Shown: positions 55,201 to 61,892 of the stretch, one piece after another
How the letters are laid out: each line of letters opens with the position of its first letter
How positions within the stretch are numbered: position 1 is the first letter of the stretch
DNA from: an uncultured Opitutia bacterium
Lineage (GTDB): Bacteria; Verrucomicrobiota; Verrucomicrobiia; Opitutales; Opitutaceae
Length of the DNA: 64,000 nt
Direction: 5' to 3'
Assembly: GCA_903902745.1 (NCBI GenBank)
Contig: CAIUWA010000024.1
Coordinates: forward strand, 1 to 64,000
The notes under the pieces: model-generated
Databases searched by the model: none
The model's input: only the letters and a program-made list of their open reading frames with translations
What the model was told of the DNA's origin: nothing
Made by a program: the position numbers and the translations under genes

Positions 55201-55348
55201 GGCAGTCGCACCGTAGTGCCTTTCCCCCGTTCAGCCAGTGGAAAACACCGCTCAACCTCCCGCACAAGGCGTCGTTATATCGTCACACGCACATGCTTCC
55301 CTTTTTGGCACGATTGGTGTTAGCTATGTCCATTATCTCTCCCGACGC

Positions 55349-56848
55349 ATGAGCGAGCAAAAGGAACTCCTCACCACGAACCGCAAGGCACTGACGATCA
55401 ATCTCGACGATCCGAAGTATGGCACGTTCGCCGAGATCGGCGCCGGCCAGGAGGTCGCCCGGGTGTTCTTCCAGGCCGGCGGCGCCTCGGGCACCATCGC
55501 CAAGTCGATTTCCGCCTACGACATGGCGTTCAGCGACGCCATCTATGGCAAGGCTCCGCGTTATGTCTCGCGTGAACGGCTCGCGCTGATGCTGGAGCAC
55601 GAGTACGGCCTCCTGATCGAGCGCCTCGCGGCCACCCGCGGCGACCGCACCACATTCTTCGTCTTTGCCGACACCGTCGCGGCCAAGAGTTTCAAGGGCA
55701 ACAACGAGGCCCACGGCTGGATGGGCATCCGCTTCCAGACCGAGCCCGGCGGCCCGCCGAGCGAAATCGTCATCCACGTGCGCATGTGGGACAAGGAAAA
55801 CGTCCTGCAGCAGCAGGCGCTCGGCATCGTCGGCACCAATCTCATCTACGGCGCGCTCTATTACCGTGACGCCCCCAAGAAACTCGTCGAATCGCTCCTC
55901 GACGGCCTTAGCTCCGACCGCATCGAGGTCGACATGCTGAAGTTCAGCGGCCCGGCGTTCCCCAGCGTCGACAACCGCCTCATGTCGCTGCACCTAGTGC
56001 ATTTCGGCCTCACGAACGCCGTGATGTTCGGCCCGAGCGGCGAGGTCCTCCAGCCTTCCGAGGTCCTTTATAAGAAGGCCATCCTCGTTGAGCGCGGCAG
56101 TTTCCGTCCGGTCACCCATGTGAACGTCGACATGCTCAACTGCGCCACCGCGCAGTTCGTCCAGGAACCAGCGGTCAAGGGCAAGGATGTCGTCGTCCTC
56201 ATGGAGATCACGATGAACAACCTGCTCGCCGCCGGCGAACTCGACGCCCAGGACTTCCTGGCCCGCGTCGATATCCTCGGTGACATCGGGTTCAATGTCC
56301 TCATCTCGAATTACTCGGAGTATTTCCGTCTCACGTCCTACTTCCGCCGCTATACCAAGGAGATGATCGGCGTGGCCATGGGCATCAATAACCTCCTCGA
56401 GATCTTCAACGAGAAATATTACGACAACCTTGAGGGCGGCATCCTGGAGTCGTTCGGCCGCCTCTTCCGCAACGCCGTCAAACTCTACATCTACCCGATG
56501 CGGCAGGAGGCCTACGACCGCTACCTTACCACCGGGCAGGCCGTCGACGCGCCCAGCAACGGCTCCCGGACCTCCAGCGTCAACGTGCTCATCAACGCCA
56601 AGAACGTCCACGTGGTGGAGCACCTCCGGAACCTCTACAATCACCTCCTCGAAAACCACTACATCGACTGCATCGTGGGGTTCGACACCAACATCCTCCA
56701 CATCTTCTCTCGCGACGCCCTCCGCCGCATCAAGGAAGGTGACGCCACCTGGGAAACGATGGTCCCCGCTTCCGTCGTCGCCGCGATCAAGAAGCGCCGC
56801 CTCTTCGGCTACACCGCAACGCCGGCCGTGGCTGCCGTGGCTAAGTAG
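55349..56848 (+). CDS. Large conserved protein of unknown function
   Basis: This 499-residue soluble protein has no signal peptide or membrane segment. Its text is very conserved-looking: LTINLDDPKYGTFAEIGAGQEVARVFF, GGASGTIAKSISAYDMAFSDAIYGK, RYVSRERLALMLEHEYGLL, EAHGWMGIRFQTEPGGPPSEI, LGIVGTNLIYGALYY, DRIEVDMLKFSGPAFPSVDNRLMSL, TNAVMFGPSGEVLQPSEVLYKKAI and VVVLMEITMNNLLAAGELDAQDFL. I recall relatives in several phyla that carry misleading names such as nicotinate-nucleotide adenylyltransferase or TonB-dependent receptor. I see no motif for either. The ATG at 55349 fits the conserved start. A truncated REP follows the stop. Confidence 0.85.
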   Translation: MSEQKELLTTNRKALTINLDDPKYGTFAEIGAGQEVARVFFQAGGASGTIAKSISAYDMAFSDAIYGKAPRYVSRERLALMLEHEYGLLIERLAATRGDRTTFFVFADTVAAKSFKGNNEAHGWMGIRFQTEPGGPPSEIVIHVRMWDKENVLQQQALGIVGTNLIYGALYYRDAPKKLVESLLDGLSSDRIEVDMLKFSGPAFPSVDNRLMSLHLVHFGLTNAVMFGPSGEVLQPSEVLYKKAILVERGSFRPVTHVNVDMLNCATAQFVQEPAVKGKDVVVLMEITMNNLLAAGELDAQDFLARVDILGDIGFNVLISNYSEYFRLTSYFRRYTKEMIGVAMGINNLLEIFNEKYYDNLEGGILESFGRLFRNAVKLYIYPMRQEAYDRYLTTGQAVDAPSNGSRTSSVNVLINAKNVHVVEHLRNLYNHLLENHYIDCIVGFDTNILHIFSRDALRRIKEGDATWETMVPASVVAAIKKRRLFGYTATPAVAAVAK

Positions 56849-56968: not shown

Positions 56969-57823
56969 ATGCGCTTCCACAAATACCACGCCCTCGGCAA
57001 CGACTACATCGTCCTCAACCCGGCTGACTTTCCGTCCTGGTCGCCCGCCCCCACGGTCGAGCAGATCCGCGTCGTCTGCCACCGCAACTTCGGCGTCGGC
57101 TCCGATGGCATCCTCTGGGGTCCCCTGCCCTCCAAGCAGAGCGAGTTCGGCCTGCGCATCTTCAATCCCGACGGCTCCGAGGCCGAGAAGTCCGGCAACG
57201 GCCTGCGCATCTTCTCCCGCTTCCTCTGGGACCAGGGCCTCGTCAAGAACCCCACCTTCACGATCGAGACCCCCGGCGGCCACGTCCAGTCCGTCATCAA
57301 GGAGAACGGCCGCCTCATCACCGTCGCCATGGGCAGAGTGAGTTTCGACAGCGCCAAGATTCCCGTCACCGGCGCACCGCGCGAGGTCATCAACGAGAAG
57401 ATCAAGATCCTCGACCGCGAGTTCGCCTTCTGCGCGGCCACGATCGGCAATCCGCATTGCGTGATTCCCCTGCCCGAGATCACGCCCGAGCTGGCGCACA
57501 AATACGGCCCCGTGCTGGAGACGCACCCGAATTTTCCGCGCAAGACCAACGTGCAGTTCCTGAAAGTCCGCGACCGGAGGAACATTCAAATCGAAATCTG
57601 GGAGCGTGGCGCGGGCTACACCCTCGCTTCCGGCAGCAGCTCCAGCGCCTCGGCCGCCGTGGCCCACAAGCTCGGCCTCGTGGACCGCAGCGTGACCGTG
57701 CACATGCCTGGTGGCCAGATCGGCATCGAGATCGGCGACGGCTTCACGATCATGATGACCGGCACGGTGAACAAGGTCGCCGACGGCATGATGCATCCGG
57801 AGCTCTTCGCGGTGAAGGTCTGA
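56969..57823 (+). CDS. Diaminopimelate epimerase homologue with both catalytic Cys replaced by Ser
   Basis: The 284-residue protein has the DapF fold and motifs throughout: FHKYHALGNDYIVLNPADF, NFGVGSDGILWG, FNPDGSEAEKSGNGLRIFSRF, AATIGNPHCVIPL, KTNVQFLKV, EIWERGAGYTLASGSSSSAS and VHMPGGQIGIEIGD. In DapF the two active-site bases are Cys in the CGNGxR and ACGTG motifs. Here they are Ser75 and Ser221. The Glu/Arg and Asn substrate-binding residues remain. It may be an inactive or a differently acting isomerase; canonical meso-diaminopimelate formation by it is doubtful. It stands alone in its operon. Confidence 0.88.
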   Translation: MRFHKYHALGNDYIVLNPADFPSWSPAPTVEQIRVVCHRNFGVGSDGILWGPLPSKQSEFGLRIFNPDGSEAEKSGNGLRIFSRFLWDQGLVKNPTFTIETPGGHVQSVIKENGRLITVAMGRVSFDSAKIPVTGAPREVINEKIKILDREFAFCAATIGNPHCVIPLPEITPELAHKYGPVLETHPNFPRKTNVQFLKVRDRRNIQIEIWERGAGYTLASGSSSSASAAVAHKLGLVDRSVTVHMPGGQIGIEIGDGFTIMMTGTVNKVADGMMHPELFAVKV

Positions 57824-59921: not shown

Positions 59922-60974
59922 TCAGGCGGGCTGCTGCTGGGAGATGCAATGCAGCGTGCCCAAGCCCCAGACCAGCTCCAGGCAATCGATGGCAATGATC
60001 TCGCGTCCCGGAAAACACGAGCCCAGCACCTCGGCCGCCTCGGCATCGCGCCTCGCCTGGCGGAAGGCCGGCATGAGCACCGCGCCGTTGATGATGAGGA
60101 AGTTCGCATAGCTCATCGGCAGCGGATGCCCCTTGATCGATCGGGCCTCCGGCAAGGGCAGCTCAACAATCTTGAATTTTCCTCCGGCCGGCGTCCGCAG
60201 CCGGTGCAGTCGCGCGAGATTTTCCTGCAGGATCCCGTAGTTCAAGTCCCTCCGGTTGTGCGTGACGACCGTCAGGATCCCGTCCGCGGAAAAAAACCGG
60301 CTGAGATCGTCGACATGCCCGTCGGTGTCATCGCCGGCTATCCCCTCGCCCAGCCAGAGAATCGTATGCACGCCGAGATAGTCGCGAAGATGCTGCTCGA
60401 TCTGCACTTTTGTCATCCGCGGGTTGCGATTCGGGTTGAGCAGGCAGGCCTCGGATGTGAGCAGCAGTCCGCTGCCATTTACATCGATCGAGCCGCCTTC
60501 GAGCACCATCTTCGGGGCGAATCGGCGCAGGCCGAGCGCCCTGGCAATCCGTGATGGGATCCGGTTGTCCCGGTCATAAGGGGGATACTTTCCACCCCAG
60601 GCGTTGTACTCCCAGTCGGTCAAGGCCACTTCACTCGTCCGGTCATTCCTCACAAAAATCGGACCGTGGTCGCGACACCAGGCATCGTTGGTCGGATGAG
60701 AATAAAACCTTACCCGCGTGAGATCCGCCTTGGCTCGCGCAATAAGCGACCGGGCGCGGGCCTGCAGGGGCTTCGCCGCATTGATGCGCACGTTCTGAAA
60801 ACGGCTGATCTGCGCCACGATCTCGGCAAACTTCGCGGGGATGGGGCGGAAATTTCCGGGCCAGGTCTTGTGCCGGTGAGGCCACGACAGCCAGATGGCG
60901 GCCTGCGGCTCCCACTCCGCCGGCATGCGGAAGCCCAGGGCGGCGGGTGTTCCGGTTTTATTTGCGGGCTTCAT
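59922..60974 (-). CDS. aguA: Agmatine deiminase
   Basis: This 350-residue guanidino-modifying enzyme converts agmatine to N-carbamoylputrescine. Features are FRMPAEWEPQAAIWLSWPH, NDAWCRDHGPIFV, MVLEGGSIDVNGSGLLLTSEACLLNPNRN (catalytic Glu/Asp), WLGEGIAGDDTDGHVDDLSRF with the catalytic His, and the C-terminal WGLGTLHCISQQQPA with the catalytic Cys. ATGs at 60995 and 60974 are both possible; the second is used here. It follows aguB by 39 bp, completing the agmatine-to-putrescine route. Confidence 0.95.
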   Translation of the reverse strand: MKPANKTGTPAALGFRMPAEWEPQAAIWLSWPHRHKTWPGNFRPIPAKFAEIVAQISRFQNVRINAAKPLQARARSLIARAKADLTRVRFYSHPTNDAWCRDHGPIFVRNDRTSEVALTDWEYNAWGGKYPPYDRDNRIPSRIARALGLRRFAPKMVLEGGSIDVNGSGLLLTSEACLLNPNRNPRMTKVQIEQHLRDYLGVHTILWLGEGIAGDDTDGHVDDLSRFFSADGILTVVTHNRRDLNYGILQENLARLHRLRTPAGGKFKIVELPLPEARSIKGHPLPMSYANFLIINGAVLMPAFRQARRDAEAAEVLGSCFPGREIIAIDCLELVWGLGTLHCISQQQPA

Positions 60975-61013
60975 TTTCCAACTCCCAGCTTTCATCGCGA
61001 GTCACCGCACCAC

Positions 61014-61892
61014 CTAATCCAGGAATCGCTGGCTGATGCCGCCGTAGGCATCGATCCGGCGGTCACGCAGGAAGGGCCAGTGGGTGCGCGTGTCATCCAC
61101 CTTCGCCAGATCAACCGGCACGAGGAGGATTTCCTCCTGCTTTTTGTCCGCCTTCGCCATGATCCCGCCGTCCGTTCCCGCTACAAAGCTCTGGCCCCAG
61201 AATTCTATCCCCTCCCCACCCGCCGGTTTTTCCAAGCCGATGCGGTTGACCGCCGCCACGTAGCACCCGTTGGCCACGGCATGGCTGCGCTGGATGGTTT
61301 CCCACGCGTCGTGCTGGGAGGCGCCGTGCTGCGCCTTTTCCTTCGGATGCCAGCCGATGGCCGTCGGGTAAAAAATAATTTCCGCGCCCTGCAGGGCCGT
61401 GAGCCGCGCGGCTTCCGGGTACCATTGGTCCCAGCAAATGAGCACACCAATGCAGCCGAACTTCGTCGACCAGGTGCGAAAGCCCGTGTCCCCCGGAGTG
61501 AAATAGAATTTCTCGTAGTAAAGCGGATCGTCCGGGATGTGCATCTTGCGGTACGTGCCGAGGAGGGCCCCGTCGGCGTCGATCACGGCCGCCGTGTTGT
61601 GGTACAGGCCGGCGGAACGTTTCTCAAAGAGCGATGCGATGACAACCACCCCGTGCTTTTTCGCGAACTGCTGGAATACCTTCGTGGTCGGACCCGGCAC
61701 CGGCTCGGCGAGCCGGAAGTTGTCGTGGTCCTCGCTCTGGCAGAAATACTGCGAGCGGAACAGCTCCTGCGTGCAGATGATGTTCGCCCCCTTTTTCGCG
61801 GCCTGCCCGGCGAGGGCCAGCGTCTTCGCAAGATTGGCCGCCGGATCCGCGGAGCAGGCGTGCTGGAGGAGGCCGAGCGTGACGGTGGCCAT
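61014..61892 (-). CDS. aguB: N-carbamoylputrescine amidohydrolase
   Basis: This 292-residue nitrilase-superfamily enzyme releases putrescine, CO2 and ammonia from N-carbamoylputrescine. The Glu-Lys-Cys triad is visible: Glu43 in ICTQELFRSQYFCQ, Lys116 in GTYRKMHIPDDP and Cys153 in GVLICWDQWYPEAARL. GGEGIEFWGQSFVAGTDGGI and the end DRRIDAYGGISQRFL are typical for AguB. It is placed between hisG and aguA on the same strand with about 40-bp gaps, so the three are likely one transcript. It makes polyamines with aguA. Confidence 0.95.
   Translation of the reverse strand: MATVTLGLLQHACSADPAANLAKTLALAGQAAKKGANIICTQELFRSQYFCQSEDHDNFRLAEPVPGPTTKVFQQFAKKHGVVVIASLFEKRSAGLYHNTAAVIDADGALLGTYRKMHIPDDPLYYEKFYFTPGDTGFRTWSTKFGCIGVLICWDQWYPEAARLTALQGAEIIFYPTAIGWHPKEKAQHGASQHDAWETIQRSHAVANGCYVAAVNRIGLEKPAGGEGIEFWGQSFVAGTDGGIMAKADKKQEEILLVPVDLAKVDDTRTHWPFLRDRRIDAYGGISQRFLD

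Follow-up and report, generated by a model that had tools for sequence, protein, structure and literature searches.

The Ser/Ser DapF gene and its product

The window, that is, the whole 64,000-nucleotide stretch of DNA analysed here, contains an open reading frame (Table 1) with the translation MRFHKYHALGNDY...PDGSEAEKSGNGLR...WERGAGYTLASGSSSSASAA. The protein scored 236.6 bits against TIGR00652, the NCBIfam equivalog for DapF, which is twice the cut-off of 114.65, and 188.6 bits against PF01678 (cut-off 34.7), its sole Pfam match. By sequence it did not fall into the proline racemase superfamily, to which its structural matches showed 11-18% identity, and its score against NF038284 (bifunctional DapF/glutamate racemase), 61.3 bits, was below the cut-off of 350. 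Homologues align from the ATG rather than from the in-frame GTG upstream of it. The host genome (3.29 Mb, 98% complete, 52 contigs) has its nearest relatives in the Opitutaceae, Verrucomicrobiota.

Table 1. Positions of the Ser/Ser DapF gene, its key codons and neighbouring genes in the window
Feature	Position	Strand	Remarks
Gene for 536-aa protein	55238..56848	+	directly upstream of the DapF gene
In-frame GTG	56903	+	upstream of the ATG
Ser/Ser DapF homologue	56969..57823	+	284 aa, ATG start
Ser75 TCC codon	57191..57193	+	first catalytic Cys position (Cys75, Anabaena DapF); motif AEKSGNG
Ser221 TCC codon	57629..57631	+	second catalytic Cys position (Cys224, Anabaena DapF); motif GYTLASGSSSS
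Ser224 codon	57638..57640	+	invariant in Ser/Ser clade, Gly in Cys/Cys relatives
Genes resembling agmatine deiminase and N-carbamoylputrescine amidase	59922..61892	-	both below NCBIfam equivalog cut-offs; probable putrescine route

The upstream 536-aa protein had no match in Pfam, NCBIfam or the PDB. In most of the Opitutaceae loci examined its gene lies next to the DapF gene and, like an SppA gene, belongs to the neighbourhood shared within the family. We also considered gene context as a pointer to another substrate, and found no context common to the loci beyond Opitutaceae.

Catalytic positions were assigned by alignment to Anabaena DapF (PDB 9MRO). Both were occupied by serine, confirming the original prediction of a Ser/Ser pair in place of the two catalytic cysteines. 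Because the Cys/Cys thiol-thiolate pair was looked for and the whole clade has Ser75 and Ser221 instead, we place the protein outside canonical DapF, in a Ser/Ser subfamily whose members probably function as DapF does. In a large group of Verrucomicrobiota it seems to be the only enzyme capable of making meso-diaminopimelate (meso-DAP), a key precursor of both lysine and the cell wall; if so, either serine suffices for the job or the textbook mechanism is not the sole one.

The AlphaFold model of the protein (pLDDT 96.2) has the DapF fold of two pseudo-symmetric domains and superimposes on the closed form of Anabaena DapF (9mro) with a TM-score of 0.91, a Z-score of 38.7 and an rmsd of 1.8 over 272 residues. 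Helices begin at residues 76 and 222 of the model, and both serines are thus predicted to sit at helix N-termini, like the cysteines of DapF. The residues contacting DAP in the Anabaena enzyme, N13, N66, N164, N197, E215, R216 and T226 (PMC12039745), correspond here to N11, N66, N161, N194, E212, R213 and S/T223, and are kept in 55/55 clade representatives, position 223 being Ser or Thr throughout, so that the hydroxyl is retained.

Compared with canonical Cys/Cys DapF (TIGR00652; PDB 9MRO from Anabaena and 1GQZ from H. influenzae), the protein has the same predicted fold, length, helix-capped catalytic positions and DAP-contacting residues, an equivalog score and the same apparent genomic role. 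It differs in the replacement of both catalytic cysteines by serine, in a serine at position 224 (Gly227 in Anabaena numbering) and in M74K, C81I, R209E and E217Y; the changes at 74, 81, 209, 217 and 224 (G224S) are all clade-wide. The claim that all other DapF motifs are kept therefore holds for the DAP-binding residues but not for these shared substitutions. The serine-rich loop, which had been called atypical, is indeed so: besides the Ser/Thr at position 223, 55/55 clade members have Ser at position 224, where the Cys/Cys homologues that align at this site invariably have Gly. The backbone NH of that glycine in Anabaena DapF is close enough to the sulphur of the catalytic Cys224 for a hydrogen bond, which makes Ser224 a natural candidate for a helper residue.

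Conservation and origin of the two serines

Serine was found at both positions in all 181 loci of the Ser/Ser clade that could be read at both, which comprise 157 distinct sequences with a lowest pairwise identity of 39%. The 38 other DapF loci read were all Cys/Cys, and no mixed Ser/Cys pair was seen among these 181 and 38 loci. The ratio of TCN to AGY codons was 119/24 at position 75 and 140/3 at position 221; both serine codon families are in use, which indicates genuine, maintained serines rather than errors. The original prediction had allowed for sequencing errors in the serine codons. This explanation, like an assembly error or a pseudogene, has practically no chance of being correct, given the 157 distinct conserved sequences from unrelated assemblies (closed genomes among them), the intact frames and the use of both TCN and AGY.

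A tree built by a quick method separates the Ser/Ser sequences from the others by a branch whose SH-aLRT support is 100, or 98 after the 19 signature columns were taken out; the placement of two long branches from reduced genomes is less certain in this tree. A single origin of the clade therefore fits. The clade, as traced among Verrucomicrobiota, spans the Opitutales and several families placed outside the class (f38, f48, f54, f68, f73 and f78). It was not in evidence on plasmids, where none of the best matches listed exceeded 40% identity. Catalytic serine is already known in the distant proline racemase superfamily; for a natural Ser/Ser DapF we found no report in the literature searched, which covered few subscription journals.

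Sources of meso-DAP in Ser/Ser genomes

The host genome encodes DapL (570 bits), LysA (446 bits) and a MurE with a DNPR motif, the mark of a meso-DAP-adding MurE. It encodes no Ddh, no MurI (glutamate racemase) and, at 98% completeness, no second DapF-like gene, the Ser/Ser gene being its sole PF01678 gene. The presence of DapL, LysA and a DNPR-type MurE, in the absence of Ddh and of a second DapF, suggests that the host needs meso-DAP and appears to have no other known source of it. The search for a Cys/Cys DapF elsewhere in the genome, which the original prediction had called for, thus found none in the host, and its suggestion that a second enzyme makes the diaminopimelate is not borne out, as neither a second DapF-like gene nor Ddh occurs in the host or in most relatives. 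An unrelated epimerase of another kind may nevertheless supply meso-DAP.

Other routes were considered and rejected. A Ddh bypass and MurI acting as a moonlighting epimerase both founder on the absence of the respective gene from the host genome. Peptidoglycan that accepts LL-DAP, with no meso-DAP made, is disfavoured by LysA and the DNPR-type MurE, although the wall itself may still be of this type. DapX, considered in connection with GapMind as an alternative epimerase, is an aminotransferase in the paper concerned.

Across genomes, the Ser/Ser gene is usually alone, and it is the sole known meso-DAP source in those without Ddh. Exactly one DapF-like gene was present in 75 of the 79 Ser/Ser genomes searched. 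The other four (G162, G229, G262 and G319) carry a second copy, which is Cys/Cys; its residue 66 is Glu or Asp, and its residue 213 is Phe. With the DAP-binding Asn66 and Arg213 both replaced, these second copies probably do not bind DAP, and we rejected them as DAP epimerases; the four loci (L166, L212, L213 and L214) look like racemases of another substrate.

Ddh scored over the cut-off in 18 of 22 genomes lacking DapF, and in 4/82 Ser/Ser and 1/24 Cys/Cys genomes. By Fisher's test, Ddh presence differed between DapF-less and Ser/Ser genomes (p = 6.7e-13) and not between Ser/Ser and Cys/Cys genomes (p = 1), though the low p value overstates the evidence, since the genomes are non-independent and the DapF-less cases come mostly from one family (f32). 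The exchange of Ddh for DapF recurs in families f16, f19, f23 and f32; within f19, one genome (G054) is Ser/Ser and lacks Ddh, while two (G194 and G219) have Ddh and lack DapF. By these counts Ser/Ser genomes behave like Cys/Cys genomes, unlike the DapF-less ones. The pattern holds in 11 Ser/Ser genomes assembled into one or two contigs (G006, G007, G021, G040, G055, G135, G169, G186, G216, G315 and G318), in which neither Ddh over the cut-off nor another DapF was found, and assembly gaps are therefore not the explanation.

The Opitutaceae searched have either a Ser/Ser or a Cys/Cys DapF, never both. Seven of them (G010, G015, G020, G030, G033, G034 and G267) have a Cys/Cys DapF of another subtype, and the Ser/Ser gene was not found in these. 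Three reduced genomes of 0.9 to 1.9 Mb (G042, G045 and G048) retain the Ser/Ser gene after losing lysA, as expected for a role in the cell wall. One member of the family, G022, is 97% complete and has DapL and LysA with neither DapF nor Ddh, which points to an assembly gap or a novel route there.

Of 57 relatives, no more than 9 had a MurI scoring above the cut-off; the others, like the host, would be expected to draw the D-Glu of their walls from elsewhere.

Proposed serine catalysis and its alternatives

The conserved DAP-binding residues and the genomic exchanges make it likely, in our view, that the Ser/Ser protein is a functional DAP epimerase. It is probably the DAP epimerase of the cell, with a thiol-free active site in which the two serines act as acid and base. 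The computations establish homology, the predicted fold, residue conservation, the single copy and the exchange with Cys/Cys DapF and with Ddh. From comparative genomics we infer that the gene supplies meso-DAP in the cell; that the serines themselves move the protons is less certain. DapL would make LL-DAP, which the Ser/Ser DapF would convert to meso-DAP for MurE and LysA. The conserved Asn/Glu/Arg set would hold DAP inside the closed cleft. Ser75 and Ser221, each at a helix N-terminus, would flank the alpha-carbon from opposite sides, one serving as acid and the other as base, and may be activated with the help of residues peculiar to the clade, such as Ser224. Of the earlier suggestion that the protein has another substrate or mechanism, the mechanism is a live possibility, and another substrate is disfavoured, since the DAP-contacting residues are conserved and genomes exchange the gene for Cys/Cys DapF or Ddh. 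On balance we lean slightly towards a natural amino acid epimerase that needs no cofactor and uses a pair of serines, without any thiol, to invert an unactivated alpha-carbon. It would have arisen a single time from a Cys/Cys DapF and become fixed in a major bacterial lineage as its sole DAP epimerase.

There is precedent for serine in related folds. One natural epimerase is active with a serine on one face, namely the Ser/Cys 4-hydroxyproline 2-epimerase of Agrobacterium vitis (proline racemase superfamily; PMC4113996), which has the same overall fold but keeps one cysteine, acts on hydroxyproline and shares ~15% identity by structure alignment. A natural thiol-free pair occurs in the Ser/Thr trans-3-hydroxyproline dehydratase of the same species, also of the same fold, whose serine is proposed to be catalytic (PMC4113996); its reaction, however, is dehydration instead of epimerization, and its substrate is another one. 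DAP itself has been found in Opitutaceae cells by GC/MS (PMC5303756). These findings agree with the epimerase reading, the main weaknesses of which are the serine chemistry, the indirect assignment of function, the low reported DAP and the genome G022.

As an acid, serine is much weaker than cysteine. DapF is described as dependent on its Cys thiol-thiolate pair, its Cys-to-Ser mutants are used to hinder catalysis, and engineered Cys-to-Ser mutants of HisR lose most of their activity (PMC12039745, PMC11602996). In Opitutaceae, DAP was ~tenfold below the level in E. coli and TLC did not reveal DL-DAP (PMC5303756); this would also be in keeping with an epimerase that is slow or missing.

Since serine alone is a poor base, the protein could be a DAP epimerase in which other residues (for example, Tyr217, Glu209 or Lys74) carry the protons, perhaps by a one-base or relay mechanism involving His163 or Glu212. 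Tyr217 and Glu209 are constant, or almost so, across the clade, as opposed to E217 and R209 in Cys/Cys DapF, Lys74 is nearly invariant, and all three changed together with the Cys-to-Ser swap. We nevertheless regard this variant as unlikely: Lys74 is replaced by Ile in one reduced genome, and the serines, never replaced in 157 distinct sequences, fit a direct role.

It is likewise improbable that the protein binds DAP or a related diamino acid and performs a different reaction (another racemization, dehydration/isomerization or D-glutamate formation), with meso-DAP made by an unrelated enzyme. The low DAP and unseen DL-DAP would suit such a reaction, as would the dehydratase activity of the Ser/Thr member of the distant proline racemase superfamily, the existence of G022, which lacks every known route to meso-DAP, and the scarcity of MurI in the host and its relatives. 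The DapF of Chlamydia trachomatis, an organism of the same superphylum that also lacks MurI, makes D-Glu as well (PMC5885031). That enzyme, however, keeps both cysteines, which it needs for glutamate racemization, and has a remodelled pocket, whereas the full DAP-binding set is retained here. Furthermore, exchange with Cys/Cys DapF and Ddh is the behaviour of a meso-DAP supplier, and no conserved neighbourhood beyond Opitutaceae hints at another pathway.

The protein might also be an inactive DapF retained to sense DAP or to bind a partner. That would account for the loss of both family catalytic residues, and DapF is known to bind partners, as in the E. coli RppH-DapF structures. This is very unlikely, as dead paralogues normally accompany an active copy, whereas here the gene is the sole DapF-like one in DAP-using genomes without Ddh and is retained in genomes of 0.9 Mb.

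DapF is the model enzyme for the abstraction of a proton with a pKa of about 29 by weak thiolates. If the Ser/Ser version, with its handful of co-changed residues, does the same job, it would reveal which active-site features supply the catalytic power, and neither thiol oxidation nor DapF inhibitors directed at thiols should affect it. If it is not an epimerase, Ser/Ser bacteria must hold some novel DAP epimerase. The gene also bears on the old puzzle of DAP and peptidoglycan in Opitutae (subdivision 4 Verrucomicrobia), which were long reported to lack both and were later found to contain DAP at unusually low levels (PMC5303756).

A separate observation concerns the distant Cys/Cys DapF that several Opitutaceae have instead of the Ser/Ser gene (loci L208, L209, L210, L169, L171, L172 and L245), in which the DAP-contacting Asn161 is replaced by Val in the members aligned.
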